Below are positions 4,696 through 23,211 of a stretch of DNA of 61,658 nucleotides, piece after piece. Within the stretch, counting starts at the first letter, position 1; each line of letters begins with the position of its first letter. The DNA is from Chloroflexota bacterium (GTDB lineage Bacteria > Chloroflexota > Anaerolineae > UBA4142): NCBI GenBank assembly GCA_016219275.1, contig JACRBM010000050.1:1-61658 (forward strand). Reading direction: 5' to 3'. The translations under genes were made by a program, and so were the position numbers. The notes beneath the pieces were generated by a model. The model did no database searches. It was given only the letters and a program-made list of their open reading frames with translations, and was not told the DNA's origin.

Positions 4696-4706
4696 GTTTG
4701 TCCTCC

Positions 4707-4989: not shown

Positions 4990-5007
4990 TCTAGCTCCTT
5001 GTCGAAT

Positions 5008-5057
5008 CAGTAAACAGTAAACAGTCTGCTGTTCACTGTTCACCGTTCACTGTTTAC
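5008..5057. repeat. Snap-back spacer, word AACAGTA
   Basis: CAGTAAACAGTAAACAG is followed directly by GTTCACTGTTCACCGTTCACTG, the inverted version of the same 8-base word. It occupies the junction between the NifU-like and ferritin-like genes. Confidence 0.8.
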
Positions 5058-5299
5058 TTTGCCTGCAATGCCTTGACCTCTTTCACTTTCGGGAAGAGAT
5101 CGCGCACTGTGCTTTCCACAACGCGGTGTAACGTCCACGGCATCAGCGGGCATTCTTCGCACGCGCCGCCCAGATGTACGACGACCGTCTCGCCGTCGAA
5201 CGATATCAAATCCACCCTACCGTTGTGATAGATTTCGGCATAGTGGCTGATCGTTGCGATTGTTTCTTGCATGCGTTCGAATTCATTTGGCGTTGACAT
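5054..5299 (-). CDS. NifU-like C-terminal domain protein (Fe-S scaffold)
   Basis: This 81-residue protein corresponds to the NifU C-terminal domain. The conserved pattern is GGACEECPLMPWTLHRVVE, with the CxxC that binds a transient [4Fe-4S] cluster, flanked by the usual beta strands (RVDLISFDGETVVVHL). It lies inside the CODH/ACS operon, between a membrane protein and the ferritin-like gene. A sensible inference is that it delivers iron-sulfur clusters to the many cluster-bearing subunits made from the same transcript. An in-frame alternative start is not evident; the ATG at 5299 has an AAGGAACG just upstream. Confidence 0.85.
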   Translation of the reverse strand: MSTPNEFERMQETIATISHYAEIYHNGRVDLISFDGETVVVHLGGACEECPLMPWTLHRVVESTVRDLFPKVKEVKALQAK

Positions 5300-5362
5300 T
5301 TAACGTTCCTTCTTTCGCCACAGAATTTTTTCCGTTTGCGGTTGGCGAGTATGGTCCTGCGG

Positions 5363-6031: not shown

Positions 6032-6033
6032 CA

Positions 6034-6090
6034 CAATTACCAACTACCAATTACCAATTACGTTTCTCGTAAATTGGTACTTGGTAATTT
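6034..6090. repeat. Snap-back spacer, word AATTACC
   Basis: CAATTACCAACTACCAATTACC is followed after a short loop by AAATTGGTACTTGGTAAT, the inverted form. It separates acsD from the membrane protein. Confidence 0.75.
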
Positions 6091-7058: not shown

Positions 7059-7076
7059 TATGCCTCCATTTAATTC

Positions 7077-7157
7077 GATAGTGCGTTAGTGTGTTAGTGC
7101 AATAGTTGAGCAAGTGGATTTTAAACCACCGCACTATCGCACTATTGAACTAGTGCA
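7077..7157. repeat. Snap-back spacer, word AGTGCGTTAGTG
   Basis: Left half GTGCGTTAGTGTGTTAGTGC, right half CGCACTATCGCACTATTGAA. It fills the gap between the small membrane protein gene and acsD. Confidence 0.8.
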
Positions 7158-7346
7158 TTATTCAGGTTGATCGAATGCAACGAGCAAAAACAAAAACACG
7201 CCGATTGCCATCGCCACGAGTACGGCTTCGTGCGGCGCGTTGGTGAGATAGCGCACCAACACCGTCGCGATCAGAATGACCACCGACGCGCCGAGCAGAA
7301 TGTTCGTCGTGCGCGGGCTAAAGTGTTTTTCGTTCGACTGGGACAT
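7158..7346 (-). CDS. Small two-helix membrane protein
   Basis: Its 62 residues contain two predicted transmembrane segments, TNILLGASVVILIATVLV and EAVLVAMAIGVFLFLLVAF, joined by a short loop. The ATG at 7346 is preceded by GAGGTGAGA. It lies between the CBS-domain gene and acsD in the operon. No family recognised; it may anchor or assist a membrane-associated step. Confidence 0.55.
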   Translation of the reverse strand: MSQSNEKHFSPRTTNILLGASVVILIATVLVRYLTNAPHEAVLVAMAIGVFLFLLVAFDQPE

Positions 7347-7422
7347 TCTCACCTCTGCGCCCCCGCGCCTCTGCGCCTCTGCTAATTGCGCGGAAGCAGA
7401 GAAGCGGGGAGCAAAGAAAATA

Positions 7423-7842
7423 TCACTTGCGTTTTATCGGCGGCTCCGGTCGTTCCGGTTCCAAGCCCGCCATTTCGCGCACGAGCGCGCGCATCGTCAC
7501 CACCGCGCTCGGCTTGCCCGCGCCCGGATGTTCGTGCAAAACGAAAACCTGGTGTACTTTTTCGTCCATCATCATGTGCGCCACCGCGGTCGCGGCGGCA
7601 TCGGGCGGCACGGTGAGCACCTTGGAAGTCATCACATCTTTTGCCGTGAGCAACTCAAAGTTGCGCGGGTACGCGCGCACGAGGTCGCTTTGCGACACAA
7701 CGCCGCACGAACCCACCTCGTCCATCACGACGACGGCGTCCGCGTTTTCACGCGCCATGATCTTTGCGATTTCAGGTAGAGGCGTTTCCATCTCGCACAC
7801 CGGCACGCCAATTCGCATCACATCGCGCACGAATTTCGTCAT
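7423..7842 (-). CDS. CBS-domain pair protein
   Basis: This 139-residue protein consists of two CBS domains: VRDVMRIGVPVCEMETPLPEIAKIM...SCGVVSQSDLVRAY and AKDVMTSKVLTVPPDAAATAVAHMMMD...AVVTMRALVREM. Such pairs (Bateman modules) bind adenine nucleotides and report energy charge. The ATG at 7842 is preceded by GGGAGGATTCG; the longer open frame that reaches 8325 runs antisense-like through acsB and is rejected. It sits directly downstream of acsB, so energy-dependent control of ACS is a reasonable inference but unproven. Confidence 0.88.
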   Translation of the reverse strand: MTKFVRDVMRIGVPVCEMETPLPEIAKIMARENADAVVVMDEVGSCGVVSQSDLVRAYPRNFELLTAKDVMTSKVLTVPPDAAATAVAHMMMDEKVHQVFVLHEHPGAGKPSAVVTMRALVREMAGLEPERPEPPIKRK

Positions 7843-7854
7843 CGAATCCTCCCT

Positions 7855-7919
7855 CAACGAATTAGAACGAATCAGCGAATGAACGAATTGCCATCCGTTT
7901 ATCCGTTTCCATCCGTTGT
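7855..7919. repeat. Snap-back spacer, word AACGAAT / ATCCGTTT
   Basis: AACGAATTAGAACGAATCAG is followed by CCGTTTATCCGTTTCCATCC. The two halves are only partly complementary. It lies between acsB and the CBS gene. Confidence 0.55.
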
Positions 7920-10199
7920 TTACATCATCGGGTCCATCGTCAACGCGGGATGGTTTTTCGATTCGAGGTACGCGACGAGATCGGGCACTTCGGTACAAAC
8001 TCGTTCGTCCGCGATCTTTTCGATCAACTCTGGATCGCCGGCAAACTCGGCGGCTTTTTTGAACTCGTCCGCCATCGTTTGCTTGAGCACCGACGACATC
8101 CACACAACGCGCTTGAACCCGCCGTCCGCGCTCAAGAATTTTTTCGACGTGAGATAGTACTTGCCCACGCCCATCACGCCCGGCGTTTGCAAACCGCCGC
8201 CCGCCATACCCGCAAGCGTCGAGAACGTCATGCCAGCCGGCGTCATCGAAGTATCCTCGCGCGAAACGACCATCACGCCGTTCGCTTCGGGAATCACCAT
8301 CACGATGCACTCGAAACAACCGCACGCGGTCATCGGATTTTCCATAATCGAGTACATCGAAACGGTATCGAATTGCTGATGCGAATTCTGGTACAGGAAT
8401 TCGTTCGAGCCGCTAAAGTAACCCTTGACTGGGTCAATGATTTGTTTTTTAGGAATCGGCTGATTGGGACCGGTTGGATTGATTTGGAAACTTGCCTTGC
8501 AGTCGAGCCACGAGTACGCGCCGCACAAGCCAACCCGTTCCGGCGAAATGACGCAGAGGTGATTGGGCGCGAACGATTGGCAGAGCGTGCACGAGTAAAA
8601 TTCTTCGACCTGCTCGTCCACCATATCCGCGAGACGCACATTGCGTTTTTGGTACGCATCGCGCGCGACCTGAAGCATCGTGTTCACGTCAGCGGGATTA
8701 GTATAAATCGTGACTTGAATCTTGTCCACAATCGCGCCAAAGTCGGCGTGATAGCGCGCGTGCAAAACCTTGCCGATGTCTTGAAGACGGAACCCTTTTT
8801 CGAACGCAGCTTTCGATACGCGAATCCACGTAATGTCGCGCTGACCGACGTGTTGCACGCCGGACGCGCCGTTGACAAAGTGGTGAATCTGGCGTTCGAG
8901 CACCGGCTCGAAATCTTCTTGCATCTTGCGCCCAGCCACTTCGGCGACGATGCCCATATCGAACGCACCGCCTTCGGGCATCGCGTCCAAATCGGGACCG
9001 ATGACCGTGACCTTGCCGTCTTCGACCTTGTCCATCGGCAAATTGTAGAGATACTCGAAGCAACGCGCGCGCTTGCCGCCGGATTCGGCGCGCAAGTCGG
9101 CTTTGCGGACGACTTCGCCTTCAAACGCTGAGCCGTACGGAACTGGGATCGGCACTTCGGTCATCTTGATCTTGACGCCGCGTACTTCGATGCAACGCTG
9201 AACGAGTTTCTCGGCGCGTTCCAAATCGTCCTTGCCGGGAATTTCGTTGAACGGCATCGAAATGACGTGTTCGTAACTCGTGACGCCGGTCGGCAGAATT
9301 TCCGGAATGACTGTGTCGGCAATCGCGGGGAAGCCGTAGGAGATCGCGCCTGCGGCGGTCGCGTATTTCAAATCGTCCACTTCGCCGAGCGCGAGGACGA
9401 ACGCGAACACGCGCGCCTTGTTGTACAACAAAATCTCGCGCGACTGTCCGCCCTTCATGCCGCCGAAGGTCAACGCGGAACGCGTCGCAAAACCGATCGC
9501 GTAAATCGCGGAGAGCGTGTCGGTGCCGAACGGGACGATGAAGGTATCGTATCCCATCTCGACGCCTTCCTCTTGCAACTGATGAATGATCGAGCGACCA
9601 TTCACATTGCCGGCGAGAAAGATGAGGATGTTGCGCCGTTGCAGTTCGCGCACAATCTTGACCGCGACCTCGTTCGATTTCGCGCAACCAACAATCGCCG
9701 CGAAGCCGGGCATCCGACCGTCCACAAGTTGAATGCCCCACGAGCGCAGTTGAATGTCGTCAATCGGTCCGTTGAGGTGTCCGCCGCCGTTTCCTTTAGA
9801 AAACTCCGGCGACGTGAACGACGCCTGCGCGAGTTGAAATCCGGGGAGCGCCTCCGGTTGATCGCCGTACAGATAGCGCAACGCCATCAACGTTTCTTCT
9901 GCGAGCAAAGTCGCCACGCCGCTGTCGAGCGTTTCACCCAGGTACGGCGTCCATTTCGATTCCGCCGGGATGGGATGCATCAACGACTTGACATGATCCA
10001 TCACCGGAACGAGATCGCCGACGGTCTCGACCTTACGCCCAGTGAGTCCCATGATCGTCGGCAAAAAATACGCAGTGTTGGGAAAGCCAACCTTGGCATC
10101 CGCGCCTTTTTCATTCAATGCTTTTTGCAGATACGCATCCGTTTCGCGGACAATATTGTTCGCGCCGCGAATCGCCGATGTGGCAATGTAACGAGACAT
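7920..10199 (-). CDS. acsB: CO-methylating acetyl-CoA synthase (CODH/ACS beta subunit)
   Basis: ACS joins CO, the methyl group from CFeSP and CoA into acetyl-CoA at the nickel-iron A-cluster. The [4Fe-4S] ligands of that cluster are visible as C537, C540, C549 and C559 (SCTLCQSFAPNHLC, VGLCGAYSW), and the distal nickel site as C626-G-C628 (TACGCFE). At 759 residues it is the long bacterial type with the N-terminal CODH-binding domain (RYIATSAIRGANNIV, FPNTAYFLPTIMGLTG). It ends in HPALTMDPMM. An ATG at 10199 is preceded by GGAGGAACTGA. Neighbours are acsA and a GNAT gene upstream and the CBS gene downstream. No cooC/acsF-type nickel-insertion ATPase is visible in the window. Confidence 0.97.
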   Translation of the reverse strand: MSRYIATSAIRGANNIVRETDAYLQKALNEKGADAKVGFPNTAYFLPTIMGLTGRKVETVGDLVPVMDHVKSLMHPIPAESKWTPYLGETLDSGVATLLAEETLMALRYLYGDQPEALPGFQLAQASFTSPEFSKGNGGGHLNGPIDDIQLRSWGIQLVDGRMPGFAAIVGCAKSNEVAVKIVRELQRRNILIFLAGNVNGRSIIHQLQEEGVEMGYDTFIVPFGTDTLSAIYAIGFATRSALTFGGMKGGQSREILLYNKARVFAFVLALGEVDDLKYATAAGAISYGFPAIADTVIPEILPTGVTSYEHVISMPFNEIPGKDDLERAEKLVQRCIEVRGVKIKMTEVPIPVPYGSAFEGEVVRKADLRAESGGKRARCFEYLYNLPMDKVEDGKVTVIGPDLDAMPEGGAFDMGIVAEVAGRKMQEDFEPVLERQIHHFVNGASGVQHVGQRDITWIRVSKAAFEKGFRLQDIGKVLHARYHADFGAIVDKIQVTIYTNPADVNTMLQVARDAYQKRNVRLADMVDEQVEEFYSCTLCQSFAPNHLCVISPERVGLCGAYSWLDCKASFQINPTGPNQPIPKKQIIDPVKGYFSGSNEFLYQNSHQQFDTVSMYSIMENPMTACGCFECIVMVIPEANGVMVVSREDTSMTPAGMTFSTLAGMAGGGLQTPGVMGVGKYYLTSKKFLSADGGFKRVVWMSSVLKQTMADEFKKAAEFAGDPELIEKIADERVCTEVPDLVAYLESKNHPALTMDPMM

Positions 10200-10228
10200 T
10201 CAGTTCCTCCTTCGAGTTATCGAATGGT

Positions 10229-10298
10229 CAATTCAATTTTTGATTTTCGATTTTTGATTTTGGATTTGAAAATCGAAAATCCAAAATCGAAAATTCGT
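10229..10298. repeat. Snap-back spacer, word TCGATTTTTGATT
   Basis: TTTTTGATTTTCGATTTTTG is followed by GAAAATCGAAAATCCAAAAT, its inverted form. This word family recurs at 13527-13617, 20328-20400 and, in frame inside genes, at about 24050-24090 and 30798-30830. Confidence 0.85.
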
Positions 10299-10861
10299 TA
10301 GAATTCTTCTTTCTTCGAGGCAAGGCGCAAGACCAACACGACGACGTCTTGCGTCTCGCCATCGGGGTACATGAAATAATCGGTAAAGGTCGCGCGCAAT
10401 TCAAAGCCCAAACTCTGAAACGCGGCAATCGTCTTGACCTGATCGGCGATGACTTCGGCGACGAGTTGTTGCAAACCCAGTTTGCGCGCCACATCAATCA
10501 GCGTGCGCAACAACGCCACGCCCAAGCCGCGTCGCCGAAATTCCTTCGACAAAAAGATGCGGACGTCGGCAAGGTGTCGCCCAGGACCGGGACGAAAGTG
10601 CAGCGTCGCGTCGCCAACCACATGGTCGTTCACCACCGCAACGATGGGCAAGGTGCGACGATAGTCGAGATTCTCGATCCAGCTACTGACCACCTGCGGA
10701 TCGCGCACGTTGTTACGCATCAGTCTGAAATCATCGCTACTGACCGGCTGAAAAAGCGAGAGCAGTTCGGATTTGTCTTCCTTCGCGAGTGGACGGAACA
10801 AGACCCGCGTGCCATCGGCGAGGGTGACAATTTGGCGGTACTTGGCGATTTGGTCTAGCAT
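10298..10861 (-). CDS. GNAT-family N-acetyltransferase
   Basis: The protein of 187 residues has the GNAT acetyl-CoA loop (LSKEFRRRGLGVALLRTLIDVA) and the downstream strand-helix VIADQVKTIAAFQSLGFELRATFTDYF. Its N-terminus (ADGTRVLFRPLAKEDKSELLSLFQ) resembles the GNAT domain linked to protein acetylation. I chose the ATG at 10861 because GGAG lies six bases before it; an in-frame ATG at 10873 is possible. Sitting between acsA and acsB, it could acetylate a pathway enzyme in response to acetyl-CoA. That is inference from context. Confidence 0.85.
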   Translation of the reverse strand: MLDQIAKYRQIVTLADGTRVLFRPLAKEDKSELLSLFQPVSSDDFRLMRNNVRDPQVVSSWIENLDYRRTLPIVAVVNDHVVGDATLHFRPGPGRHLADVRIFLSKEFRRRGLGVALLRTLIDVARKLGLQQLVAEVIADQVKTIAAFQSLGFELRATFTDYFMYPDGETQDVVVLVLRLASKKEEF

Positions 10862-11000
10862 GGGTGTCTCCATGATTTCGATTGGATCCTTCCCAATCAC
10901 ATTGCCCCGCAATGGGCAGGTTGGTGCGCGCGACGTGCGTGCGTTGCCATTCTCACCACACAGCATAAAGAGCGGAGCACGACCCTGTGCGTCCGCTCGA

Positions 11001-11097
11001 CCTCACCCCCATCCCCCCGCCCCCCTTCCCCTCTCCTGATGAAGTTCAATCAGGAGAGGGGGAAGGGGTGTCCGAAGGACGGGGGAAGGGGGTGAGG
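11001..11097. repeat. Large C-rich/G-rich inverted repeat
   Basis: CCTCACCCCCATCCCCCCGC near 11001 pairs with GGGGGAAGGGGGTGAGG near 11097, with an inner stem CCCCTCTCCTGAT / ATCAGGAGAGGGG. It abuts the acsA stop codon and could act as a 3' stabiliser or partial terminator between acsA and the GNAT gene. Same family as 5756-5803. Confidence 0.8.
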
Positions 11098-13101
11098 TTA
11101 CTCCGCCGCGACCGGCAATCCGCCGTACAGCGCGGCTTGGCGATCTTTGAGCGACAACAATTCGCGCATGCGCTTGTCGCCGGACTTGCCCCACTTGGAC
11201 GCGTCGTAGATCGGCAGTTTGAGCGCGGCGCGTTTCGCGTCAATGTGCGCGAGCGAGCGACGCACGATCTCGGCGGGATCGGGCACGAATTCCATTTTGC
11301 CGCCGACAAGTTTTTCCCAGCCCTCGCTCATCAATTTTTCGACTTCTTCGCTGTTCGCCACCGGCGAATTGACGCCGAACAAGACGTACGCGCCGGACGC
11401 CGCAAAGTACGCGCCAATCGCGAGCGCCTTTTCGCTCATCCACTCGGGCGCGATACCAACACCCGGAATGTCGCTGATGTCCTCGCCGAGTCCGCCCTCG
11501 CTCGCCATTTCGGCGAGCACGGTGAGAATGCGCGTGTTGTCCACGCACGAACCCATGTGCAAGACCGGCGGAATGCCGATCGCTTCGCACACTTCGCGCA
11601 ACCCCGGACCCGCGTATTCGAGCGCGGCTTCGCCGGTAAGCAAACCATATTTTGCATTCGCCAGCGCGCCGCAACCGGTCTGGACGACGAGCACGTCGTT
11701 CTTCAACAATTCTTTCACGATGTAATTGTGTCCGGCATCCTGGGTCGTGCGCGGATTGTTGCAACCCACGACGCCCGCCACGCCGCGCAAACGCCCCGCC
11801 ATCACGGCATCGTTCAACGGGCGGAACGAGCCGCGATAATAACCGCCGAGCATGTAGCGAATGTACTCGTGCGAAAAACCTGGGACGAGGTCGGCGACGT
11901 GCGACGGAATCTGCACGTCCTTGCGATTGGGATAGTTGTCAATCGCGATCTTGACAATGTCGCGCGCGATGTTCAACGCTTCGTGTTCGTTGAACTCGAT
12001 GTGCGTCGCGCCGGTGATTTTCACTTTCGGCGACGTGGTGATGAACTTGGTGTGGAATTTCGACGCGAGGTCGGAAAGCGATTGCATGATGCACTGCACG
12101 TCCACGATCATCGCTTCGACCGCGCCGGTCATCACACACAATTCCTGATTCAGATCGTTGCCCGCGCTCGGCACGCCCTGGCGCATCAACGTTTCATTCG
12201 ACGTACAGCAAACGCCGGTCAAGTTGATGCCTTGCGCGCCTTTCGATTTTGCGTACTCGATCATCTCCGGTTCGTAGACCACACGCACGATCAACGCGGA
12301 GAGCGTCGGTTCGTGACCGTGAACGACGATGTTCACTTCGTCGGTTTTCAACACACCCAGGTTGACCTTGCTGACGAGCGGCGCGGGCGTGCCAAACAGC
12401 ACGTCCGAAATATCCGTCGCCATCATCGAGCCGCCCCAGCCATCCGCGAGCGCGGTGCGAAGCGAGCCGTGCAAAATGTGCTCGGCGTCCTGGTCGTCGC
12501 CCATGTGCGTGCGGTGCAACGTGTCCACGACTTCACGGTCCACGCCACGCGGCATCAAGCCCAGTTTGCGCCACAACTCGATACGCTTTTTCGGCGCGCG
12601 CGCGGTGTACTTGAGTTCGCCTTTTTGTCCCGCCATGTCGCCCAGCGCGACCGTCGCAATTTCGTGCGCGATCTTGCGCGCGTCTTTGCCGTCGGTCTGG
12701 ATGCCAAAGTACGCCGCGATGGTGCGGAGTTTATTTTCGTCGCGCAGTTCGTACCCTTGCGCTTCGTCTTCCGCGACGGCAAGCAACGTGAAAATCAGAT
12801 CGCGACCGTGATCGCTGTGCGCCGCGGTGCCCGCCGCGATGTGACGCGCCATGTTACGCGCGGCAACCGTCGCGCGTGTCGCGCCGCACACGCCAACTGG
12901 GTCGGGGTTCGCTTTCGTCGGGACGAGACGGCACGGACCCATGTTGCACATCTGGCAACACGCGCCTTCCGCACCGATGGGGCACGCCGCCATTTTCGCG
13001 GCGCGGCTAAATGCAGTCGAATATCCTAGTTGATCCGCGCGGTCGAGCATCTCGGCAACGGCGGGGTCAATCGTTTGAACGGTTGGTTTCTGGGTAGCCA
13101 T
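11098..13101 (-). CDS. acsA: Anaerobic carbon monoxide dehydrogenase catalytic subunit
   Basis: This nickel CODH reduces CO2 to CO for ACS or oxidises CO. The N-terminal cluster region gives C40 and C48 (bridging D-cluster) and C49, C52, C57 and C72 (B-cluster): ACPIGAEGACCQMCNMGPC and VGVCGAT. C-cluster regions such as VVGCNNPRTTQDAGHNYIVK, VQTGCGALANAKYGLL and LHMGSCVDNTRI are intact. Length, 667 residues, is normal. The ATG at 13101 is preceded by GGAGGAACC. Lack of a ferredoxin-like CooF neighbour and linkage to acsBCD point to the acetyl-CoA pathway form. Confidence 0.97.
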   Translation of the reverse strand: MATQKPTVQTIDPAVAEMLDRADQLGYSTAFSRAAKMAACPIGAEGACCQMCNMGPCRLVPTKANPDPVGVCGATRATVAARNMARHIAAGTAAHSDHGRDLIFTLLAVAEDEAQGYELRDENKLRTIAAYFGIQTDGKDARKIAHEIATVALGDMAGQKGELKYTARAPKKRIELWRKLGLMPRGVDREVVDTLHRTHMGDDQDAEHILHGSLRTALADGWGGSMMATDISDVLFGTPAPLVSKVNLGVLKTDEVNIVVHGHEPTLSALIVRVVYEPEMIEYAKSKGAQGINLTGVCCTSNETLMRQGVPSAGNDLNQELCVMTGAVEAMIVDVQCIMQSLSDLASKFHTKFITTSPKVKITGATHIEFNEHEALNIARDIVKIAIDNYPNRKDVQIPSHVADLVPGFSHEYIRYMLGGYYRGSFRPLNDAVMAGRLRGVAGVVGCNNPRTTQDAGHNYIVKELLKNDVLVVQTGCGALANAKYGLLTGEAALEYAGPGLREVCEAIGIPPVLHMGSCVDNTRILTVLAEMASEGGLGEDISDIPGVGIAPEWMSEKALAIGAYFAASGAYVLFGVNSPVANSEEVEKLMSEGWEKLVGGKMEFVPDPAEIVRRSLAHIDAKRAALKLPIYDASKWGKSGDKRMRELLSLKDRQAALYGGLPVAAE

Positions 13102-13119
13102 GGTTCCTCCTTGAATATC

Positions 13120-13182
13120 AGTGAACAGTATTCAGTATTCAGTATTCAGTATTCAGTCTGAATACTGATTACTGAATACTAG
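13120..13182. repeat. Snap-back spacer, word CAGTATT
   Basis: Four to five copies of CAGTATT are followed by CTGAATACTGATTACTGAAT. It lies between the HMA-like gene and acsA. Confidence 0.85.
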
Positions 13183-13508
13183 TATTTCCGGAACTCGCCC
13201 GACAATTGCAAATCCACTTGACTCGTCGTCGTCGCGCGCACGCCCAGTTTATCCCACGCCGGATCACCCGTAGCATACGGCGACTCGGCAACGACTTCGA
13301 GTTCGCCCGGCGCGTAACCTGCGCCCGTCAACACTTTCACGATAGCGGCTGACGTCGTCTTGGCGGGGTCGAATTCGATAAAGACTTCTTTGAACGCCGC
13401 GCTCGCCACCACATCTTCCACGCCCGCGATGGGCGCAAGCAATCGCTTGATGTTCGTGACATGATGATCGGCATAGAGCGCGGGGATGACGAGTGATAGT
13501 TGTTCCAT
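13179..13508 (-). CDS. HMA-fold protein lacking the metal-binding cysteines
   Basis: The first 70 residues follow the beta-alpha-beta pattern of heavy-metal-associated (Atx1-type) domains: LSLVIPALYADHHVTNIKRLLAPIAGVEDVVASAAFKEVFIEFDPAKTTSAAIVKVLTGAGY. At the place where the family has MxCxxC the sequence reads LYADHHVTN, which offers His-His but no Cys. A C-terminal tail (WDKLGVRATTTSQVDLQLSGEFRKY) is unlike HMA. The gene lies between the DUF166-like gene and acsA. A role in nickel delivery through the histidines is possible but speculative; it might instead only be a regulatory or protein-protein domain. Confidence 0.7.
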   Translation of the reverse strand: MEQLSLVIPALYADHHVTNIKRLLAPIAGVEDVVASAAFKEVFIEFDPAKTTSAAIVKVLTGAGYAPGELEVVAESPYATGDPAWDKLGVRATTTSQVDLQLSGEFRKY

Positions 13509-13526
13509 TTTTGAATCCCTCCGTTG

Positions 13527-13617
13527 GAATTTTGGATTTTCGATTTTCGATTTTCGATTTAGGAACGTCAGCGCGCGCTTTGCGAATTCAGAAATCCAAA
13601 ATCGAAAATCGAAAATC
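13527..13617. repeat. Snap-back spacer, word TTTTCGAT
   Basis: TTTTGGATTTTCGATTTTCG, a short unrelated loop (AGGAACGTCAGCGCGCGC), then AAATCCAAAATCGAAAATCG. It fills the junction between the DUF166-like and HMA-like genes. Confidence 0.85.
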
Positions 13618-14374
13618 AGTCCACGAAACCTTCTGGCTTGAAATAATGCACCTCGCGGTGCGGTTTGATCGCTTCGCTGAACGCATCGCGAAATAGATTA
13701 CCGCTGACGTGCAACAATGTATCGGCGTAATCTGGGTCAATGCCCATCGAGCAGAGGCAGGGATAGTGATGATGCAACATGCCCGCCTGGTATTCCACAT
13801 CGTCTAGCGTTACGCCGACGATGCCCTGCGCCACAAAGCGCATACACCCGCACGGCGCGTCGAGATCAACGTCTACGCGCGCAATCGTCTTGGCGTCTTC
13901 ATCCACCGCGACGCGTACACGCGGCTTGCCAAAATATCGCGCGAACTCGGCGATGAGCGGCTGAGTGTACTCGACGCGTTGTCCGCGCAGACTAAAGGAT
14001 TTTTCGGTAAGAGTGCAAAATGGTTTTGGGAAAACGCTGACAACGCCGACTTGTTTCATCCACTCGCGCAGTTGGTTCATCAGACCCTTTGGCAACCACT
14101 CGTTGCGGTCAATCGGCGCGATCATCGCTTTCGCGCCGGTCATTTGCGCGACATCGGGCAGCAGTTCGGCAACGCCGGAGGTTTCAGCGAGTGCGAGAAT
14201 CAAATCGGCGGGCGGGAGTGATGCGGGCAAAAAATCGCGCGGGTCTTCAATGACAATGGGAAAGTGCGAGGGTGCAGTCCATTCATTTACCGTCCAATCT
14301 TTCGGACCGTACTCACGCACGTTGTGGGCGATTCGTCGCCCGTATTCGCCTGTCACGACAGCGAGTATCTTCAT
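13616..14374 (-). CDS. DUF166-like protein
   Basis: At 252 residues, the N-terminus MKILAVVTGEYGRRIAHNVREYGP and the motif HFPIVIEDPRDFLPASLP match my memory of the DUF166 family, found mostly in methanogens and acetyl-CoA-pathway bacteria. The C-terminal half holds cysteines in DAPCGCMRF and HHHYPCLCSMGIDPDYADTLLH, which could bind a metal or cluster. The ATG at 14374 has no ideal Shine-Dalgarno sequence. Biochemical role unknown; the co-occurrence with CODH/ACS suggests a maturation or cofactor function. Confidence 0.7.
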   Translation of the reverse strand: MKILAVVTGEYGRRIAHNVREYGPKDWTVNEWTAPSHFPIVIEDPRDFLPASLPPADLILALAETSGVAELLPDVAQMTGAKAMIAPIDRNEWLPKGLMNQLREWMKQVGVVSVFPKPFCTLTEKSFSLRGQRVEYTQPLIAEFARYFGKPRVRVAVDEDAKTIARVDVDLDAPCGCMRFVAQGIVGVTLDDVEYQAGMLHHHYPCLCSMGIDPDYADTLLHVSGNLFRDAFSEAIKPHREVHYFKPEGFVD

Positions 14375-14472: not shown

Positions 14473-16341
<1,869 letters not shown>

Positions 16342-16410: not shown

Positions 16411-16443
16411 AGAATAACAACTAGCGGTCAAAATGAGGTCAAA
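16411..16443 (-). promoter_or_regulatory. fhs promoter with tandem TTTGACC boxes
   Basis: Reading the minus strand, TTTGACC occurs at 16437-16443 and again at 16426-16432, exactly 11 bp apart. After nine bases comes TATTCT (16411-16416), a weak -10. The layout equals that at 23131-23163 and 17776-17819 and resembles PhoB/OmpR-type activator sites that replace a -35. Confidence 0.7.
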
Positions 16444-16508
16444 AACATGTGCAACCTTTGTCCGAGTCTCAATTGGACATTCGTTTGTTCGTTTTTAGTG
16501 GTCAAGGT

Positions 16509-16537
16509 TTGGTCTTTCATAAAGTTCGTGTTAGAAT
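16509..16537 (+). promoter_or_regulatory. Promoter of the core-MetE gene
   Basis: TTGGTC, a 17-base spacer and TAGAAT precede the gene by about 30 bases. A GAGGAG ribosome-binding site follows at about 16551. Confidence 0.55.
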
Positions 16538-16565
16538 ACGGGCAATCTGACGAGGAGAAAAACCG

Positions 16566-17666
16566 ATGACCGAGTTTGTCCCCCGCGCGCTCGCGACCGG
16601 CGTTGGCAGTTTGCCGCATCCGGATCCACGCACCGCGATTGATTTGGTGCTCAAAACGTTTCCGACGATTCCGTTCTGGCCCCAACTGCCGCGCCGCGAT
16701 TTTCGTGAGAACATGTACGCGCAGTACAGCGATCATCTGCCGAGTGTGCAACTTGATCTGCCGCACGAGTGGATGGGCGCAGTCATCGGCGACGACAAAC
16801 TGGCGCAGGTCGAAGAATTTTACGTGCGCTACCTGACCGACGACCTTGAACTGTTCGCGATGAGCGCAGATTATGCCGCCGGTCTCTACGCGCTGCGCGA
16901 TTCGGCGAGCGCGCTGCGCGACACGGTGATGCTCAAAGGTCAGGTCACCGGTCCGATCAGTTTCGGCTTGAAGGTCGTTGACCAAACACTCAAGCCGATG
17001 TTGTACGATGAAGCATTACGCGACGTGCTGGTGAAACATCTCGCGCGCAAAGCCCAGTGGCAGGAAAAATTTTTGCAATCCGTGTTACAACCTTGCGAAG
17101 GTTCACGCTTCGCGCCTTCGCAAAGTTGCGATACCATCATTTTCATTGACGAACCTTCGCTCGCGCTCGTCGGCGCGTCGCTCGTCGCGCTCAATCGCGA
17201 GGAAGTCGTGCGCGATCTCGAAGAAGTTTTTTCCGCGTTGCAAGGATTGAAAGGGACGCACTGTTGCGGCAACACCGACTGGGGCATGTTGCTCGACACG
17301 TCTGTCAATGTGATTTCGTTCGACGCGTACACCTACGCCGAGAACCTCGCGCTCTTTGCCGACGAGGTGAAACACTTTTTGCATCGCGATGGCATTCTCG
17401 CCTGGGGCATCGTGCCGACCATCGCCGAACACATCGCGCGCGAAACGGCTGAATCGCTCGTCGCGCGGCTCGACGCGGCAATCGCGTTGCTCGTCAAAAA
17501 AGGAATTGACCGCGATACGCTCTACGCGCGCGCGCTCATCACCCCCGCGTGTGGACTTGGCACGATTTCAGAATCCGCCGCTGAACGCGCGCTCGAACTG
17601 ACGCGTCAAGTTTCTGCACGTGTTCGTGAACGCGAGTGGAAGTTAGTTGAATCGTTGAATCGTTGA
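16566..17666 (+). CDS. Core-MetE-type cobalamin-independent-family methionine synthase
   Basis: The protein matches only the C-terminal catalytic half of MetE. The zinc site is visible as H232-x-C234 (THCCGNTDW), a likely Glu at about 259 and C329 (TPACGLG). At 366 residues it lacks the N-terminal folate-binding half, as do the core-MetE proteins of Dehalococcoides and many archaea. Those use a methylated corrinoid protein as donor; in Dehalococcoides the donor is reported to be CFeSP (family knowledge). It diverges from fhs and the acs cluster, which makes CFeSP a likely donor here too. The ATG has GAGGAG eight bases upstream. About 14 codons near residues 176-188 derive from an inserted palindrome. 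Confidence 0.85.
   Translation: MTEFVPRALATGVGSLPHPDPRTAIDLVLKTFPTIPFWPQLPRRDFRENMYAQYSDHLPSVQLDLPHEWMGAVIGDDKLAQVEEFYVRYLTDDLELFAMSADYAAGLYALRDSASALRDTVMLKGQVTGPISFGLKVVDQTLKPMLYDEALRDVLVKHLARKAQWQEKFLQSVLQPCEGSRFAPSQSCDTIIFIDEPSLALVGASLVALNREEVVRDLEEVFSALQGLKGTHCCGNTDWGMLLDTSVNVISFDAYTYAENLALFADEVKHFLHRDGILAWGIVPTIAEHIARETAESLVARLDAAIALLVKKGIDRDTLYARALITPACGLGTISESAAERALELTRQVSARVREREWKLVESLNR
17088..17128. repeat. Palindromic repeat inserted in frame in the metE-like gene
   Basis: CAACCTTGCGAAGG, a 13-base loop, then CCTTCGCAAAGTTG form an inverted repeat. It encodes QPCEGSRFAPSQSC, which looks out of place in the family. Confidence 0.7.
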
Positions 17667-17768
17667 ATTGTTGGGCAGTTGGCTGGTTGAGAGGTCGGAT
17701 GATCCGGCGAATTGTGACGAACAAACTATGCAACGATCCAACGATCCAACCACCCAACTCTCCAACAA
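17646..17768. repeat. Snap-back spacer, word GTTGAATC / GATCCAAC
   Basis: GTTGAATCGTTGAATCGTTG and related words are followed after about 60 bases by CAACGATCCAACGATCCAAC, giving a long imperfect hairpin after the metE-like stop codon. It may serve as its transcription end. Confidence 0.75.
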
Positions 17769-17775
17769 ACCAGTT

Positions 17776-17819
17776 TTTGACCGTCCTTTGACTACCCTCT
17801 GACTTGCTCGTGATAATAT
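17776..17819 (+). promoter_or_regulatory. Signalling-operon promoter with three tandem boxes
   Basis: TTTGACC (17776), TTTGACT (17787) and TCTGACT (17798) lie exactly 11 bp apart. After nine bases comes TAATAT (17814-17819). Box period and box-to--10 distance equal those of the fhs and cytochrome promoters. Confidence 0.7.
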
Positions 17820-17903
17820 CTGCAAAGCAAACAAGCGAAAGCGTTCGGTGCATCAACGGCGATGACTGACCGATCACTGAATCTAAATGTCCAAAGGATC
17901 GCG

Positions 17904-18839
17904 ATGACCAAGCGAAAAATAGTTTTCAGCGCGATGATGGCGCTGGTCTTTTTGTTGTCCGCGCGCGCCGATGCATTCGCGCAAGACCCCAACCGTCTCA
18001 CATCGCTCAATATCTCCATTTGGCCCGAGTACGACCGCCCGACCGTGCTCGTGATCCTGAACGGCGTCTTTGCGGATAAAGGCACCCTGCCCCGCGAAGT
18101 CTCGGTGCTCGTCCCGGCGAAAGCCGAAGTGATCGTGACCACCTACGTTAATCCCGACGGCAGACAAGCGCCGGAACAAGTTTCGCGCAGCACTGATCTG
18201 GGTGATGGCTTCAAGCGCGTCACGTTTACGGTAGCGACCGCGGAATACTGGGTCGAGTACTATGACGATTTGTTGCGCGGTACGCCGGACAAGACGATGG
18301 ATTTTGCGCTCAAACTGGGTGCGCCCGCCGACCAAGTTGTGTTGGAAATTCAACAGCCCGCGCGCGCGACCAACTTCACTTCGACTCCGCCGACACAACT
18401 AACGCGCGTGGACCCCACCGATGGCTTGTCGTACTATGGCGCGCAGTTCGCGAACCTTGCCGCCGGGCAAAGCGTTAACGCGCAGATCAAATACACGCGG
18501 GCGGAAACTCGCTTGACCAAAGACATGCTCGCGGCAGCGCCGTCAGCGAGTAGCCCGGCGACCGCCGCGCCGCAACAACCCAGCGTTTGGCAAAACGCGT
18601 TTCTGGTTGCCGCCGCTGTCGTCCTGGGCTTGGTCGCGGTGTTCGGTGTTTTCATTTTGCGCCAGCGCCAAACCGCGCCGAATGCCGCGCGTCAAGCATC
18701 GCGGGTTCCGTCCAAAAAAGGGCGTCGCCCGCAACCGGCGAATGGAACCGCCGCCGCATTTTGTACCCAGTGCGGGCGCGCGTTGCGCGCGGAAGATAAT
18801 TTCTGCCCGCGCTGTGGAAATAAACGTCGGAGCGTATGA
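17904..18839 (+). CDS. Secreted/membrane protein with C-terminal zinc ribbon
   Basis: The ATG at 17904 starts a signal peptide (KRKIVFSAMMALVFLLSARADAFA) followed by a beta-rich extracytoplasmic domain of about 190 residues. A Pro/Ala-rich linker and one transmembrane helix (NAFLVAAAVVLGLVAVFGVFIL) follow. A cytoplasmic tail ends in a double-CxxC zinc ribbon (FCTQCGRALRAEDNFCPRCGNKR). The upstream frame to 17862 is less likely. Its stop overlaps the kinase start by four bases (ATGA), so the two are co-translated. It could be the sensing partner of the kinase; the family is unnamed to me. Confidence 0.75.
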   Translation: MTKRKIVFSAMMALVFLLSARADAFAQDPNRLTSLNISIWPEYDRPTVLVILNGVFADKGTLPREVSVLVPAKAEVIVTTYVNPDGRQAPEQVSRSTDLGDGFKRVTFTVATAEYWVEYYDDLLRGTPDKTMDFALKLGAPADQVVLEIQQPARATNFTSTPPTQLTRVDPTDGLSYYGAQFANLAAGQSVNAQIKYTRAETRLTKDMLAAAPSASSPATAAPQQPSVWQNAFLVAAAVVLGLVAVFGVFILRQRQTAPNAARQASRVPSKKGRRPQPANGTAAAFCTQCGRALRAEDNFCPRCGNKRRSV

Positions 18840-19720
18840 GCGTTTTTCCGCAAGCCAAGCCGCGCGCCGAGCAGTTACTCTCGCAACGCGTCGGCGTGCT
18901 CAAGCAACTCATCCCGTTGCTGATCGTCGCCATCGTCATGTTCTACGAAATCACGTCGCATCTCATTTTTGAGACGCAGTCGCATCCCTTGATGGTGGCG
19001 TTCGAGATGATCGTGTTTGGCATTGGCGGACCGGCGTTCACCTGGGTCGTGTTGAACTGGGTCGCGCGCGAGATCGCGAAACGCGAGCGCGCCGAAGGCG
19101 AAGCGGATGCGAGCAACGCGATGATGCAAGAGATGCATCATCGCATCAAGAACAATTTGCAAACCGTCGCCGATTTGCTCTCGCTCGAAATGTCGCGCAA
19201 CCCGCGCCCCGAAGTCCAGGAAAGTTTGCGCGACTCGATCACACGCATCAAAAGCATCGCGGCATCGCACCAAATGCTCTCGCTCGAAAGCGTAGGCGCA
19301 ACGGACATCACCGCGCTCGCACAACTCATCGGCGACCAGGCGCGGCGCAGTATGGTGCGTCCCAATCAACACATTACCGTGAACGTGCAAGGTCCCAGCA
19401 TCTTGCTCAATTCGAAACAGGCGACCGCGTTCTCGCTGGTGCTGAACGAACTGGTTTGCAACGCGATGGAACACGGCTTGCGCGACCGCACCGCGGGTCA
19501 CATCGAAATCGAACTCGATTGGGATGGCGATGAAATTCTTCTGCGCGTGCAGGACGACGGCGCCGGCTTGCCGGAGGAATTCGATTTGGCAACCTCGCGC
19601 GGGCTGGGTCTGCAAATCGCGCGCACGCTCGTCGAAAAAGATTTGCGCGGCAGAATGGGCATTGCCAACGGCGAAGGTTGTACGACCGCGTGGGTCCGCA
19701 TCCAACGCGGCGGCGCGTAG
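18836..19720 (+). CDS. Membrane sensor histidine kinase, HisKA_2 type
   Basis: Two transmembrane helices (LIPLLIVAIVMFYEITSHLIF and VAFEMIVFGIGGPAFTWVVL) are followed by the phospho-acceptor box QEMHHRIKNNLQTVADLLSLE, characteristic of HisKA_2 kinases. The ATPase domain has the N box LNELVCNAMEHGL and the G boxes DDGAGLP and GLGLQIA. There is almost no extracytoplasmic loop, so input probably comes from the membrane or from the zinc-ribbon partner. This kinase type often pairs with ANTAR regulators such as the next gene. Confidence 0.9.
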   Translation: MSVFPQAKPRAEQLLSQRVGVLKQLIPLLIVAIVMFYEITSHLIFETQSHPLMVAFEMIVFGIGGPAFTWVVLNWVAREIAKRERAEGEADASNAMMQEMHHRIKNNLQTVADLLSLEMSRNPRPEVQESLRDSITRIKSIAASHQMLSLESVGATDITALAQLIGDQARRSMVRPNQHITVNVQGPSILLNSKQATAFSLVLNELVCNAMEHGLRDRTAGHIEIELDWDGDEILLRVQDDGAGLPEEFDLATSRGLGLQIARTLVEKDLRGRMGIANGEGCTTAWVRIQRGGA

Positions 19721-19748
19721 CACATACTTTAGTTGATACGAGGTGAAT

Positions 19749-20327
19749 ATGGAACCGCTCCGCATTTTGATTGCCGACGACGAAAGTCTGCGTGTGATGA
19801 GTCTCAAGGGTCAATTGGAATCGTTGGGACACAAGGTCATCGGCGAAGCCGGCAACGGCAAAGAAGCCGTTCATCTGGCGAACGAACTCAAGCCCGATCT
19901 CGCGATTCTCGACATCAAGATGCCTGAAATGGATGGCATCGAAGCCGCCGAGACGATCACGCGCGAACGCCCGATCCCGATCATCTTGCTCACCGCGTAT
20001 AGCGAGCAAGAACTCGCCGAGCGCGCCGCTAGCGCGAACGTCGCGGCGTACTTGATGAAGCCGATCTCGGAGAACGATCTGTTGCCCGCGATTGCGCTCG
20101 CCGTGTCGCGTTTCAAGGAATTCCAATCCTTGCACCGCGAGGTGGACGATCTGCGCGACGCGCTCGAAACGCGCAAACTCGTCGAGCGCGCCAAGGGTAT
20201 CTTGATGCGCCGACTGAATCTCACCGAAGAAGAAGCGTTCCGCCGGATGCAACGCCGCAGTCAAAACGAAAACAAGAAACTCGGCGAAATCGCGCAAGCG
20301 ATTATCACTGCAGACGGAATGTTGTAG
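19749..20327 (+). CDS. Response regulator with ANTAR RNA-binding output domain
   Basis: The receiver domain has IADDE and the phospho-Asp in LAILDIKMPEMDG, plus TAYSE and the Lys in YLMKPI. The C-terminus is an ANTAR three-helix unit (VERAKGILMRRLNLTEEEAFRRMQRRSQNENKKLGEIAQAII), which binds paired RNA hairpins and prevents termination. The start is the ATG at 19749 with GAGGTG five bases upstream; a GTG at 19743 is less likely. It follows the kinase by 28 bp. The RNA targets are not identified here. Confidence 0.92.
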   Translation: MEPLRILIADDESLRVMSLKGQLESLGHKVIGEAGNGKEAVHLANELKPDLAILDIKMPEMDGIEAAETITRERPIPIILLTAYSEQELAERAASANVAAYLMKPISENDLLPAIALAVSRFKEFQSLHREVDDLRDALETRKLVERAKGILMRRLNLTEEEAFRRMQRRSQNENKKLGEIAQAIITADGML

Positions 20328-20400
20328 GAATTTTCGATTTTCGATTTTCGATTTGTGGTCGCGGCATTCTCGGCAATTTGAAATCGAAAATCCAAAATTC
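20328..20400. repeat. Snap-back spacer, word TTTTCGAT
   Basis: TTTTCGATTTTCGATTTTCG, a loop of about 28 bases, then AAATCGAAAATCCAAAATTC. It lies between the ANTAR regulator and the V4R gene. Confidence 0.8.
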
Positions 20401-20416
20401 CCCCGGGGGCAATGTT

Positions 20417-20878
20417 GTGCTCGACGAAGATCAGGTCATTCAACTCATACGCGATGAATCGGTCTTGATTGATCGCGGCATTATTGGCGAACTGTACGAG
20501 ACGGGTCTCAAGTTTTTGGGCATCGGGATTGGCGGTATTTTGTACACCGCCGGCAAAAAAGGCGGCGCGCGCGGCGCGCAGATGTTGAGCCAGCGTCTCA
20601 CCATCCACGGCGAAGACCTGCTCGTCGCCGCGCTTCTCGCGTTCACCCAGGCGCATTGGGGCGTCGGCACGCTCGTGCGCGAGAACGGCAAAACGTGTAT
20701 CGAAGTCCGCGACTCAGTGCTCGCGGCTTCCGTCCCGCGTCAAAAGAAACCGATCTGTCATCCGCTCGCCGGCTACATCGCCGGGTTTTGGGAAGAGGCG
20801 TGGCACAAATCCGCCAAGGTCAAAGAAACCCATTGCATCGCCGTCGGCGATCCATGTTGTGTGTTCGAGATCGAGTGA
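20417..20878 (+). CDS. V4R (4-vinyl reductase) domain protein
   Basis: V4R domains bind small hydrophobic or tetrapyrrole-like ligands and often serve as sensors. The conserved C-terminal signature is present: CHPLAGYIAGFWEEAW and KETHCIAVGDPCCVFEI. The open frame begins at a TTG inside the repeat; I prefer the GTG at 20417 (VLDEDQVIQLIRDESVLI). About 154 residues is normal for a stand-alone V4R. Being last in the kinase/ANTAR operon, it may supply a ligand signal to the pathway. Confidence 0.85.
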   Translation: MLDEDQVIQLIRDESVLIDRGIIGELYETGLKFLGIGIGGILYTAGKKGGARGAQMLSQRLTIHGEDLLVAALLAFTQAHWGVGTLVRENGKTCIEVRDSVLAASVPRQKKPICHPLAGYIAGFWEEAWHKSAKVKETHCIAVGDPCCVFEIE

Positions 20879-20902
20879 CCTGGCACGATTGAACATAAAG
20901 AA

Positions 20903-20936
20903 AACCTCGGTTGATGAGTCATCATCAACCGAGGTT
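20903..20936 (+). terminator. Terminator hairpin after the V4R gene
   Basis: AACCTCGGTTGATGA, a four-base loop, then the perfect complement TCATCAACCGAGGTT, followed by TTCCATTTT. It lies 24 bp after the stop codon. Confidence 0.8.
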
Positions 20937-20976
20937 TCCATTTTGCAGGCAGGAGTTTGGTGGAGGGTCCGCCAGA

Positions 20977-21006
20977 AACCAGGTTTCTTTAAGAAACCGG
21001 TTTTTT
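20977..21006. terminator. Second hairpin between convergent genes
   Basis: AACCAGGTTTCT, a three-base loop, AGAAACCGGTT and a T-run. The cytochrome gene converges from the other side, so it can serve both strands. Confidence 0.65.
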
Positions 21007-21058
21007 GCGCCAGCCAGAGGTTTCTATTTTGCCATCGGCAATTTGCGATCCGCGATCT

Positions 21059-22993
21059 CTACGACGGTAGATGACACGCCTTGCACGTATCGTCCGCGCG
21101 TCCTGCGTGGTCCGCCGGGGGCTTGGGTCCCACACCGGCTTGATGGCACGCCAAGCAAATGACGCGCCCCGCGTGATCGGCAGGTTGTTTCTTGATGCCG
21201 CCTGCCGCCGGTTGCGCTGATTGGGACGCGGATGGTGTCGCGGTCGCATCCCCAGGTCCGGCAGCTTTATGACAGGTCAAGCAATTGTTGTTGGTGAAGC
21301 CAAAATCCTTGTGGAACTGTGTGATCTGTGGAATGCTGGCAGTCCCAGTCCCGTGACATCCCAGGCATTGCGTCCGCCCCGCGGTACTGTGCGGAATTTT
21401 TGGTGGACCGCCCGACGCCGCGCCGGGCACAGGAGTTGTTACCGCAACGGCTACCGCGGGCTTGTGGCAACCCAGGCAAGTCGAATTCGGACGATTGGTG
21501 TGATCCACCGGATAGGGAAACGCCAGAGCATTCGGCGCGTGACAAATTTGACAATCCGGATTCCCACCAACCGGATGCGGAACCGTTCGCGGCGTCGAGC
21601 CAGGCGCAGAGACCGGGCGAATCGGCGCTTTGACGATTTCGGCGAGCTTGGGCGCGTTCAGACCGGCAAACTTCCATTCGATACCGTGACACGCGCTATT
21701 CGAACAGAAGGACGTGTTGTCTTTGCCGCCGGCGTTGTTCGTATCGTGACACACCTGGCATGAGGTGTTGAATTGCGTACGATGCTCGGCGAGCCAGGTC
21801 GTCGTCTTGTGCGATGGCGGTTCATCCGTGCGCGAGAGAGACAAAAGCGCCGCGCCGCCATTAGCCGTCGTCACTTCGGGAATCGCATGACAGACATTGC
21901 ATTCGAGTCGAATGGATTCTTTGCGGTCGGGCGTAAAGTGTTTGCCGTCGTGACAGCGAAAACAGCCGGGCCAATCCTTGTGTCCGACGTTATCTGGATG
22001 CGTCGTCCAGTCCAGTTCTTGATCGCGATAATAAATCTTCGGATACAAGTCCTGGAGATACTTGATGGTTTTCTGAATCGTCGCATTGTTCCGCGTATAG
22101 TAGGCGGAATAATTCTGTTTGTAGAATTGATCGAGATTGCCAATCGCTTGCTTGGCTTCGGCGTCAGTTTTATAGTGCGGGGTCAGGACTTCGATGCCCT
22201 TTTTCTTGATTTCCGGAATCGCTTCGTCAACGAGTTTGTTCTGCAATGCCGCATCCACCGCTTGATCCGGCGACATGAATGTGTGCGAAACGCGATTGTG
22301 GCAATCAATGCAATCCATTAGTCGCGTGGGCAAACCGGCGAGCTGACTAGCGGTCATGGTTTTTTCGATGTCGGTGTAGATCGTCTTGGTTCCATCCGCA
22401 TTCGTAACGGAAATCCAGGGAATCTCCTGTTGCAACTTGTCGGTGTACTTGAACTCGATGATATTTTCGATGTGCCAGTGGATGCCGCGTCCCAGCCCGG
22501 TGCGCGCGGAACCACCGCCCGTTTTCATCACGAGTGTCGTGGCGACCTGGGTATTCTTCTCGTTCGTCTGGTAATCCGCGAGCGTGATGACCTTGTCCCA
22601 GGAAAATTTTTCGGGCCAATGACATTTCTCGCACGATTCGCGCGCCGGCTGCAAACCCTTGGCGTGGATCGGATATTCATAATTGCCGGTCAAATACGCC
22701 CACACGAATTGGGCATCCACCGCTTTGCGCGTAAATGCCACGCCGATAAAGGTGCGTCCGATATGACATTCGGTGCATTGAACCCGCGCGTGAGGAGAGC
22801 GTTGATAGGAATCATAGTGCGGCGGCATCGTGTGGCACTGGGTGCCGCAAAAAGCGGCGCTGTTCGTATAATCCCACGCGTACGAAGCGCCCAGAAAGAG
22901 GATGAATAAAACGACGAGTGTAACAAACCCCAGGAACCACTGTCGAGGTTTGATCGAGCGAATCCCTTGCCAGAATTTGCGTAGGAAGGACAT
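21059..22993 (-). CDS. Multiheme cytochrome c with NapC/NirT-like membrane anchor
   Basis: One N-terminal transmembrane helix (WFLGFVTLVVLFILFLGASYAW) leads to a NapC/NirT-like region and then a long periplasmic heme chain, 644 residues in all. I count 12 CxxCH sites plus two variants: CGTQCH (CX3CH) at the first heme and CSNSACH (CX4CH) in the middle. That would make 14 hemes if all are filled. Pro/Ala-rich linkers separate the last five sites. The start at 22993 (MSFLRKFWQG) has GGAGG upstream. It likely carries electrons from the quinone pool to an outer acceptor or reductase; none is encoded next to it. No neighbouring cytochrome maturation genes are seen. Confidence 0.92.
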   Translation of the reverse strand: MSFLRKFWQGIRSIKPRQWFLGFVTLVVLFILFLGASYAWDYTNSAAFCGTQCHTMPPHYDSYQRSPHARVQCTECHIGRTFIGVAFTRKAVDAQFVWAYLTGNYEYPIHAKGLQPARESCEKCHWPEKFSWDKVITLADYQTNEKNTQVATTLVMKTGGGSARTGLGRGIHWHIENIIEFKYTDKLQQEIPWISVTNADGTKTIYTDIEKTMTASQLAGLPTRLMDCIDCHNRVSHTFMSPDQAVDAALQNKLVDEAIPEIKKKGIEVLTPHYKTDAEAKQAIGNLDQFYKQNYSAYYTRNNATIQKTIKYLQDLYPKIYYRDQELDWTTHPDNVGHKDWPGCFRCHDGKHFTPDRKESIRLECNVCHAIPEVTTANGGAALLSLSRTDEPPSHKTTTWLAEHRTQFNTSCQVCHDTNNAGGKDNTSFCSNSACHGIEWKFAGLNAPKLAEIVKAPIRPVSAPGSTPRTVPHPVGGNPDCQICHAPNALAFPYPVDHTNRPNSTCLGCHKPAVAVAVTTPVPGAASGGPPKIPHSTAGRTQCLGCHGTGTASIPQITQFHKDFGFTNNNCLTCHKAAGPGDATATPSASQSAQPAAGGIKKQPADHAGRVICLACHQAGVGPKPPADHAGRADDTCKACHLPS

Positions 22994-23108
22994 TGTTTCC
23001 CTCGCCTCCTTGAAAGAGAAATTAAAAAGCCAATCGTCGCTTACGTGTAACGTCGAAAGGCAATCCGTCACCTTCCGTAACGCATTTCAACAGCAGCTTC
23101 ACTGTCAA

Positions 23109-23127
23109 CGATAAGTCATGCTTATCG
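23109..23127. promoter_or_regulatory. Inverted repeat at the cytochrome transcription start
   Basis: CGATAAG, five bases, CTTATCG. It begins three bases past the -10, the same place as the longer palindrome at the fhs promoter. Confidence 0.5.
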
Positions 23128-23130
23128 CCG

Positions 23131-23163
23131 ATTATAAAGAAACTAGGTCAAAATAGGGTCAAA
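23131..23163 (-). promoter_or_regulatory. Cytochrome c promoter with tandem TTTGACC boxes
   Basis: On the minus strand TTTGACC occurs at 23157-23163 and at 23146-23152, 11 bp apart. After nine bases comes a consensus TATAAT (23131-23136). A leader of about 130 bases follows before the ATG at 22993. Confidence 0.75.
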
Positions 23164-23211
23164 TCTTTGTTCGAGTTACGTAAGAGCAACGACGCGCCAT
23201 TCGCGCTTTGA

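Follow-up and report, generated by a model that had tools for sequence, protein, structure and literature searches.

A conserved four-box promoter array ahead of Wood-Ljungdahl, cytochrome and signalling genes in Anaerolineae, and a candidate OmpR/PhoB-type regulator for it

A stretch of 61,658 nucleotides from contig JACRBM010000050.1 (C50) of a Chloroflexota bacterium of the Anaerolineae (assembly GCA_016219275.1), hereafter the window, carries three promoters built on arrays of heptamer boxes with the consensus TTTGACC, which are the subject of this work together with the regulator that may read them. The first array, like the other two read directly from the sequence, lies on the minus strand at 16411..16465 and consists of four boxes, TCGGACA (16465-16459), TTGCACA (16454-16448), TTTGACC (16443-16437) and TTTGACC (16432-16426), the last two forming a core separated by tcat and followed, after the nine nucleotides gctagttgt, by the -10 element TATTCT (16416-16411). 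The start codon of fhs, encoding formate--tetrahydrofolate ligase (14473..16341, minus strand; PF01268, E 3e-260), stands 69 bp past this -10. The same-strand genes that follow (108..14374, assigned by Pfam) encode a DUF166 protein (13616-14374), an open reading frame (13179-13508), the CODH catalytic subunit (11098-13101), a GNAT protein (10298-10900), ACS/CODH beta (7920-10199), a CdhD-family protein (6090-7058), a CdhD plus FeS protein (3346-4695) and RACo (108-1880). This Wood-Ljungdahl cluster is probably co-transcribed from the fhs promoter.

The second array, on the plus strand at 17765..17819, carries the boxes ACAAACC (17765), TTTGACC (17776), TTTGACT (17787) and TCTGACT (17798), with gtcc and accc as the gaps between the last three, then the nine nucleotides tgctcgtga and the -10 TAATAT (17814-17819). 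Behind it lies what we call the kinase/ANTAR operon (17904..20878, plus strand; Pfam and gene calls), which comprises genes for a secreted zinc-ribbon protein (17904-18839), a membrane histidine kinase with HisKA_2 (18836-19720) and a response regulator with an ANTAR domain (19743-20327), and a small gene (20417-20878). The third array (23131..23185, minus strand) has three recognisable boxes, TCGAACA at the -11 position relative to the core (23174-23168) and the core boxes TTTGACC (23163-23157) and TTTGACC (23152-23146) separated by ctat, followed by tagtttctt and the -10 TATAAT (23136-23131); inspection of the sequence gave no clear box at its -22 position. This array precedes the gene of a multiheme c-type cytochrome with a NapC/NirT N-terminus and 12 CxxCH motifs (21059..22993, minus strand; Pfam and motif count). 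A sequence-only reading of the window had described the three promoters as sharing TTTGACC-like boxes at 11-bp spacing, the last of which ends exactly 9 bp ahead of the -10, and both direct reading and a pattern search bear this out for all three. The two or three boxes then counted at each promoter are indeed present, but the count has to be raised, as such arrays normally carry four, the outer two weaker.

In the window alone, a loose pattern allowing up to 3 mismatches gave 9 sites against 5.5 expected, which is not significant. In the own genome (6.16 Mb, 107 contigs), TTTGACC-N4-TTTGACC with at most 1 mismatch occurs at 16 sites against 1 for the reversed control, and with the -10 added to the pattern the figures are 13 against 1. 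When exact TTTGACY pairs were sought there with any gap from 0 to 16, the gap was 4 in 10 of 14 matches, the reversed control giving 5 matches. At 3 mismatches the enrichment is gone (49 against 42), and that list therefore served only as leads for inspection. Moreover, a held-out matrix of 55 positions, trained on 60 intergenic arrays from genomes other than the own, scored the fhs array at 52.8, the cytochrome array at 42.1 and the kinase array at 37.6, whereas no other independent site in the window scored above 4.5, and none of 30 first-order simulated windows above 12.0.

Conservation was followed in two samples, one of 60 relatives (the own genome included) and one of 249 genomes of the class. 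The exact pattern of two boxes plus -10 occurs in 16 of the 60 relatives (own family 11/14, sister family 4/6, others 1/40), with 0 hits for the reversed control in all 60, and in 19 of the 249 class genomes, where the reversed control gave six single hits in six other genomes. Pooling both samples yields 68 exact arrays in 22 genomes. Had the pattern been no promoter element, it could be expected as often within genes as upstream of them; the outcome was the opposite, with 66 of the 68 intergenic and two inside genes (that of G092 and one G010 site), and 57 of the 62 arrays with a called downstream gene standing within 227 bp of its start, placements and distances that rest on a purpose-written caller of open reading frames with a simple hexamer model. 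The fhs array is conserved in 14 genomes, own included: fhs lies behind it in 11 genomes of the own family and in G091, G135 and G153, which belong to a different family. Other first downstream genes recur across genomes as well, among them a gene of the kinase operon, NuoE, ccmE, kinases, multiheme cytochromes and metV-like genes. In G001 the window order of fhs, a 366-residue gene and the kinase operon is kept with both arrays and one extra small gene; its kinase-operon array sits at the same place (L309), and the homologous cytochrome is under an array too. Homologs of the first gene of the kinase operon are preceded by arrays also in G005, G015, G016 and G017.

The anatomy of the array was examined on 41 distinct exact two-box cores, in whose selection the register of upstream boxes played no part. 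An AC in register was found at the -11 box in 33 of them and at the -22 box in 26, against only 2 of 41, the background level, at the -33 position; in the wider set the figures are 57/68 and 46/68 for the -11 and -22 boxes. Register at -11 and -22 but not at -33 indicates four half-sites, the outer two weaker, and the inspected sites of the own genome likewise show up to four boxes per array with the same N9 to the -10. The earlier statement that these promoters have no normal -35 can be extended to nearly the whole collection, given that the best match to TTGACA at spacers of 16-18 reaches at most 2/6 in 67 of 68 arrays. An extended -10 (TGn) occurs in 37 of the 68, a frequency that would fit activator-dependent promoters without a -35. 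In a search for TAnnnT after the 16 two-box sites of the own genome, not conditioned on extra boxes, phase 9 was found in only 5; elsewhere a -10 of the GATAAT-like or TATAAC kind has to be accepted, and the boxes are therefore better matched than the -10. FNR and CRP operators are inverted repeats; the arrays among the 68 sites are built of direct repeats throughout, and no inverted-repeat operator of that type was encountered there.

Apart from fhs, the 12-CxxCH cytochrome and the kinase/ANTAR operon, the array targets in the own genome include ccmE-ccmF (C94), NuoE/NuoF-like genes (C33), a cache-domain histidine kinase and a Fer4/cupredoxin protein (both C13), a 103-residue protein with ccmE (C36), a 9-CxxCH cytochrome with cytochrome b561 (C24) and an ArsR-like gene (C24; weak score of 14.6, family judged by eye). 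A sigma-70-type factor with regions 1.2 to 4 (C36:52336-53331; L077:4337-5332) is also a target, here and in G006, G007 and G012, and the regulon may thus extend to a second tier of control. The arrays ahead of metV/metF (C102) and a CBS-domain gene (C103) are in phase, but their proximal pair is weak; in the latter case, the four-box array between a regulator gene and the divergent CBS gene is strongly conserved (L096, L097, L098, L076:5555-7016). Among the first downstream genes that were annotated or clustered, a subset of the targets, none concerns phosphate acquisition. Three further loci deserve mention. At C78:10254-10308 (L081) a good array (score 31.9) has no gene called downstream on its strand, and a small RNA or a short gene could lie behind it. 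At C28:4350-4416 (L083) the boxes before a 9-CxxCH MtrC-like cytochrome are out of register and are followed by a sigma-70-like promoter, TTGACT-N17-TATATT, perhaps as a variant arrangement. At C13:11537-15501 (L084) a small gene separates that of a reductive-dehalogenase-like protein from the array-controlled gene of the Fer4/cupredoxin membrane protein downstream.

The own genome holds 29 matches to PF00486, none of them on the window contig, in agreement with the remark of the sequence-only reading that no OmpR-type regulator gene lies in the window. They were compared with all PF00486 matches of G004, G006 and G007 (12, 17 and 17) and with 24 of the 28 of G016, the four left out (C9, C179, C107 and C15:21703) being some of its weakest. 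The proteins at C13:27060, C80:27102, C16:84175 and C85:17152 gave reciprocal best hits in each of the four genomes. The last of these, the C85 regulator (L249:8141-8833, outside the window), has 230 residues with PF00072 and PF00486 domains, and its nearest solved relatives by sequence are PhoP and KdpE of M. tuberculosis; the gene of a PAS-HisKA-HATPase kinase overlaps its gene by 4 bp. With a cut-off of E 1e-75 it is matched in 38 of the 249 class genomes, in 24 of them with at least 60% identity. Arrays are present in 18 of these 24 genomes against 1 of the 225 others (Fisher, 2e-21), and outside the own order in 6 of 10 C85-bearing genomes against 1 of 225 (Fisher, 7e-9), values that overstate independence because the genomes are related. 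Seen from the other side, 18 of the 19 array-bearing class genomes carry a C85 ortholog, the exception, G092, having a single site inside a gene; the co-conserved winged-helix response regulator that the idea of a common activator calls for thus has a candidate. The recognition helix, Y[VI]KRY[IV]W[YH]LR, is retained in all 17 array-bearing orthologs aligned, the alignment covering 28 of 30 regulator loci (L273 and L281 are missing). In 21 of the 28 aligned loci a kinase reading frame adjoins the regulator gene or overlaps it (-32 to +11 bp), and 20 of these look to be of the same type; Pfam, run on two of them, gave PAS, HisKA and HATPase. As a control, the C80 regulator was followed at a laxer cut of 1e-40: it is found throughout the own family (eight genomes of the class sample) and in six genomes of the sister family, and has 0 orthologs of at least 49% identity outside the order, where matches of 37-41% turn up in eight genomes, of which only G030 bears arrays. 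The C80 protein (C80:27093-27743) is OmpR-like with a receiver that lacks the usual acidic pocket, and it is kept in both families of the order.

The neighbourhood of the C85 regulator tells a similar story. The gene order kinase-regulator-ccmE-array-sigma factor is found in G006, G007 and G012, and near the regulator lie the sigma factor in G004, ccmE in G002 and ccmE with an array in G005. Next after the regulator comes, in G014 and G016-G019, a homolog of the own genome's array-controlled CBS gene; in G091, G135 and G153 it is a radical-SAM gene, which in G004 stands under an array. In G030, the first genome outside the order in which arrays were noticed, an array stands before genes with 4 and 5 CxxCH motifs, 2.7 kb from the regulator. 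No array-controlled gene was seen beside the regulator in G000, G001, G015, G132 and G185. With regard to the kinases, that of the window operon (18836-19720) has a two-helix membrane N-terminus which by eye is similar to that of the kinase paired with the C85 regulator, which may point to a shared input.

In our view the boxes probably serve a single OmpR/PhoB-type regulator, the C85 protein, as its operator, and this regulator would activate a regulon of redox and one-carbon energy genes. The proposal that a single activator of this type serves the three window promoters gains support, as far as sequence comparison goes, from the intergenic placement of the arrays and from the co-conserved regulator. 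In the mechanism that we propose, the C85 protein is probably phosphorylated by the PAS histidine kinase encoded in the overlapping gene, and would then bind the four half-sites, one helical turn (11 bp) apart, as two tandem head-to-tail dimers. The half-site beside the -10 would take the place of the missing -35, the bound protein recruiting RNA polymerase to an often extended -10 (TGn). Under such control would come fhs and probably the Wood-Ljungdahl cluster, metV/metF, cytochrome c maturation, multiheme cytochromes, NuoE/F-type genes, the sigma factor and further kinases. The missing -35 suggests activation and not repression, and the target set makes redox state or the supply of electron acceptor the most likely signal.

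Several observations weigh against this assignment, beyond the relatedness that inflates the Fisher values. The own C85 gene is not near an array, nor does one lie ahead of its operon, and two of the own array targets, a MerR-like gene (C88) and an ABC permease gene (C2), fall outside the redox theme. Six C85-bearing genomes (G014, G019, G024, G150, G167 and G182) have no exact array, and in at least G014, G019, G024, G150 and G182 the recognition helix is nearly unchanged. The cut of 60% identity that defines the 24 orthologs was chosen after the data had been seen. Finally, C13:27060 and C16:84175 are, like C85, reciprocal best hits in G004, G006, G007 and G016, at 76-86% identity, so that one of them, or another OmpR-type response regulator of the own genome, might read the array in its stead. 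This we regard as unlikely, albeit worth keeping in mind: neither has an array nearby in the own genome or at its orthologs' loci in the scanned set, in contrast to the co-distribution and repeated neighbourhood evidence for C85, the class-wide co-distribution (249 genomes) having been run for the C85 and C80 regulators.

The OmpR-type response regulator on C103, encoded divergently beside a four-box array, is a much less probable reader. Its adjacency is kept in L096-L098, with the array ahead of the divergent CBS gene, but nothing outside the own family matches it above 46% identity, and G004 and G007 lack an ortholog of it and the G011 match is only 40% identical, despite 3, 4 and 5 exact arrays in these genomes, respectively. 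Scarcely better placed is an activator of the SARP/BTAD type, a class that uses heptamers 4 bp apart close to the -10: the one BTAD protein examined (C13, L084:3788-6889), to which our rejection applies, is encoded directly upstream of an array-controlled kinase, but no close ortholog of it (57-60% identity) occurs in the array-bearing G004, G006, G007, G012 and G013. Least credible of all is that the boxes are chance occurrences or parts of ordinary sigma-70 promoters with TTGACC as the -35, for all the resemblance of TTGACC to TTGACA and the non-significant loose search of the window, since the -10 lies 9 and 20 bp past the ends of the two core boxes and not 16-18, a spacing on which we reject the -35 version, and since enrichment within and across genomes, the 66 of 68 intergenic placements and the fhs array in 14 genomes oppose chance.

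We lean, with some reserve, towards seeing in this kinase-regulator pair and its four-site operator a dedicated two-component system that acts as master switch linking respiration and the Wood-Ljungdahl pathway in several families of Anaerolineae, old enough for fhs to carry the operator in two distinct families. By respiration we mean here cytochrome maturation, multiheme cytochromes, hydrogenase and NuoE/F-type genes, and the sigma factor. Little is known of what turns on the Wood-Ljungdahl pathway, even in acetogens that have been cultured. Among the papers listed by full-text searches of the literature, there was no report of this motif or of a Wood-Ljungdahl regulator in Chloroflexota. 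The regulation of the pathway treated in those papers concerns Clostridium (PMC6873888, PMC10458427, PMC8748961). A defined operator together with a named kinase-regulator pair predicts targets in about 20 uncultured genomes. The two together also connect genes of unknown function with energy metabolism, and they open the question to in vitro tests for which the organism need not be grown.

Regarding known systems, the arrays show several traits of class II activator promoters of the OmpR/PhoB type, with heptamer repeats separated by 4-bp gaps, a proximal repeat about 10 bp from the -10 and no -35. PHO sites stand in place of the -35, where PhoB contacts the polymerase. According to one account, PHO boxes consist of two or more 11-nt direct repeats, each with seven conserved and four variable bases (PMC4415409). 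The arrays described here share this plan of 11-nt direct repeats, and the C85 protein has the same two domains as PhoB/PhoP, but the consensus is TTTGACC and not the CTGTCAT or GTTCACC given for PHO boxes (PMC4415409). They also differ in usually having four boxes and in annotated targets of one-carbon, cytochrome and redox function, with no phosphate uptake among them. The SARP activators of Streptomyces are alike in their heptamer direct repeats 4 bp apart near the -10, but they lack a receiver domain, and the SARP-like candidate on C13 is not co-distributed with the arrays. In Bacillus, ResD-ResE pairs an OmpR-type regulator with a PAS kinase and governs cytochrome c maturation and anaerobic respiration; the C85 system may be its analogue, a likeness drawn from the target set, and we know of no control of a Wood-Ljungdahl operon by Bacillus ResD. 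The Pcauto motif of Clostridium autoethanogenum is common to Wood-Ljungdahl and other autotrophy genes; its TetR-family activator CAETHG_0459 binds directly to RNA polymerase, and the motif also supports activation by the housekeeping sigma factor (PMC6873888). The two cases have in common a promoter motif shared by Wood-Ljungdahl and other genes, whereas CAETHG_0459 belongs to an unrelated protein family and the candidate here is a two-component regulator on direct repeats. The architecture is PhoB-like; the motif, the regulon and the pairing with this regulator appear to be new.

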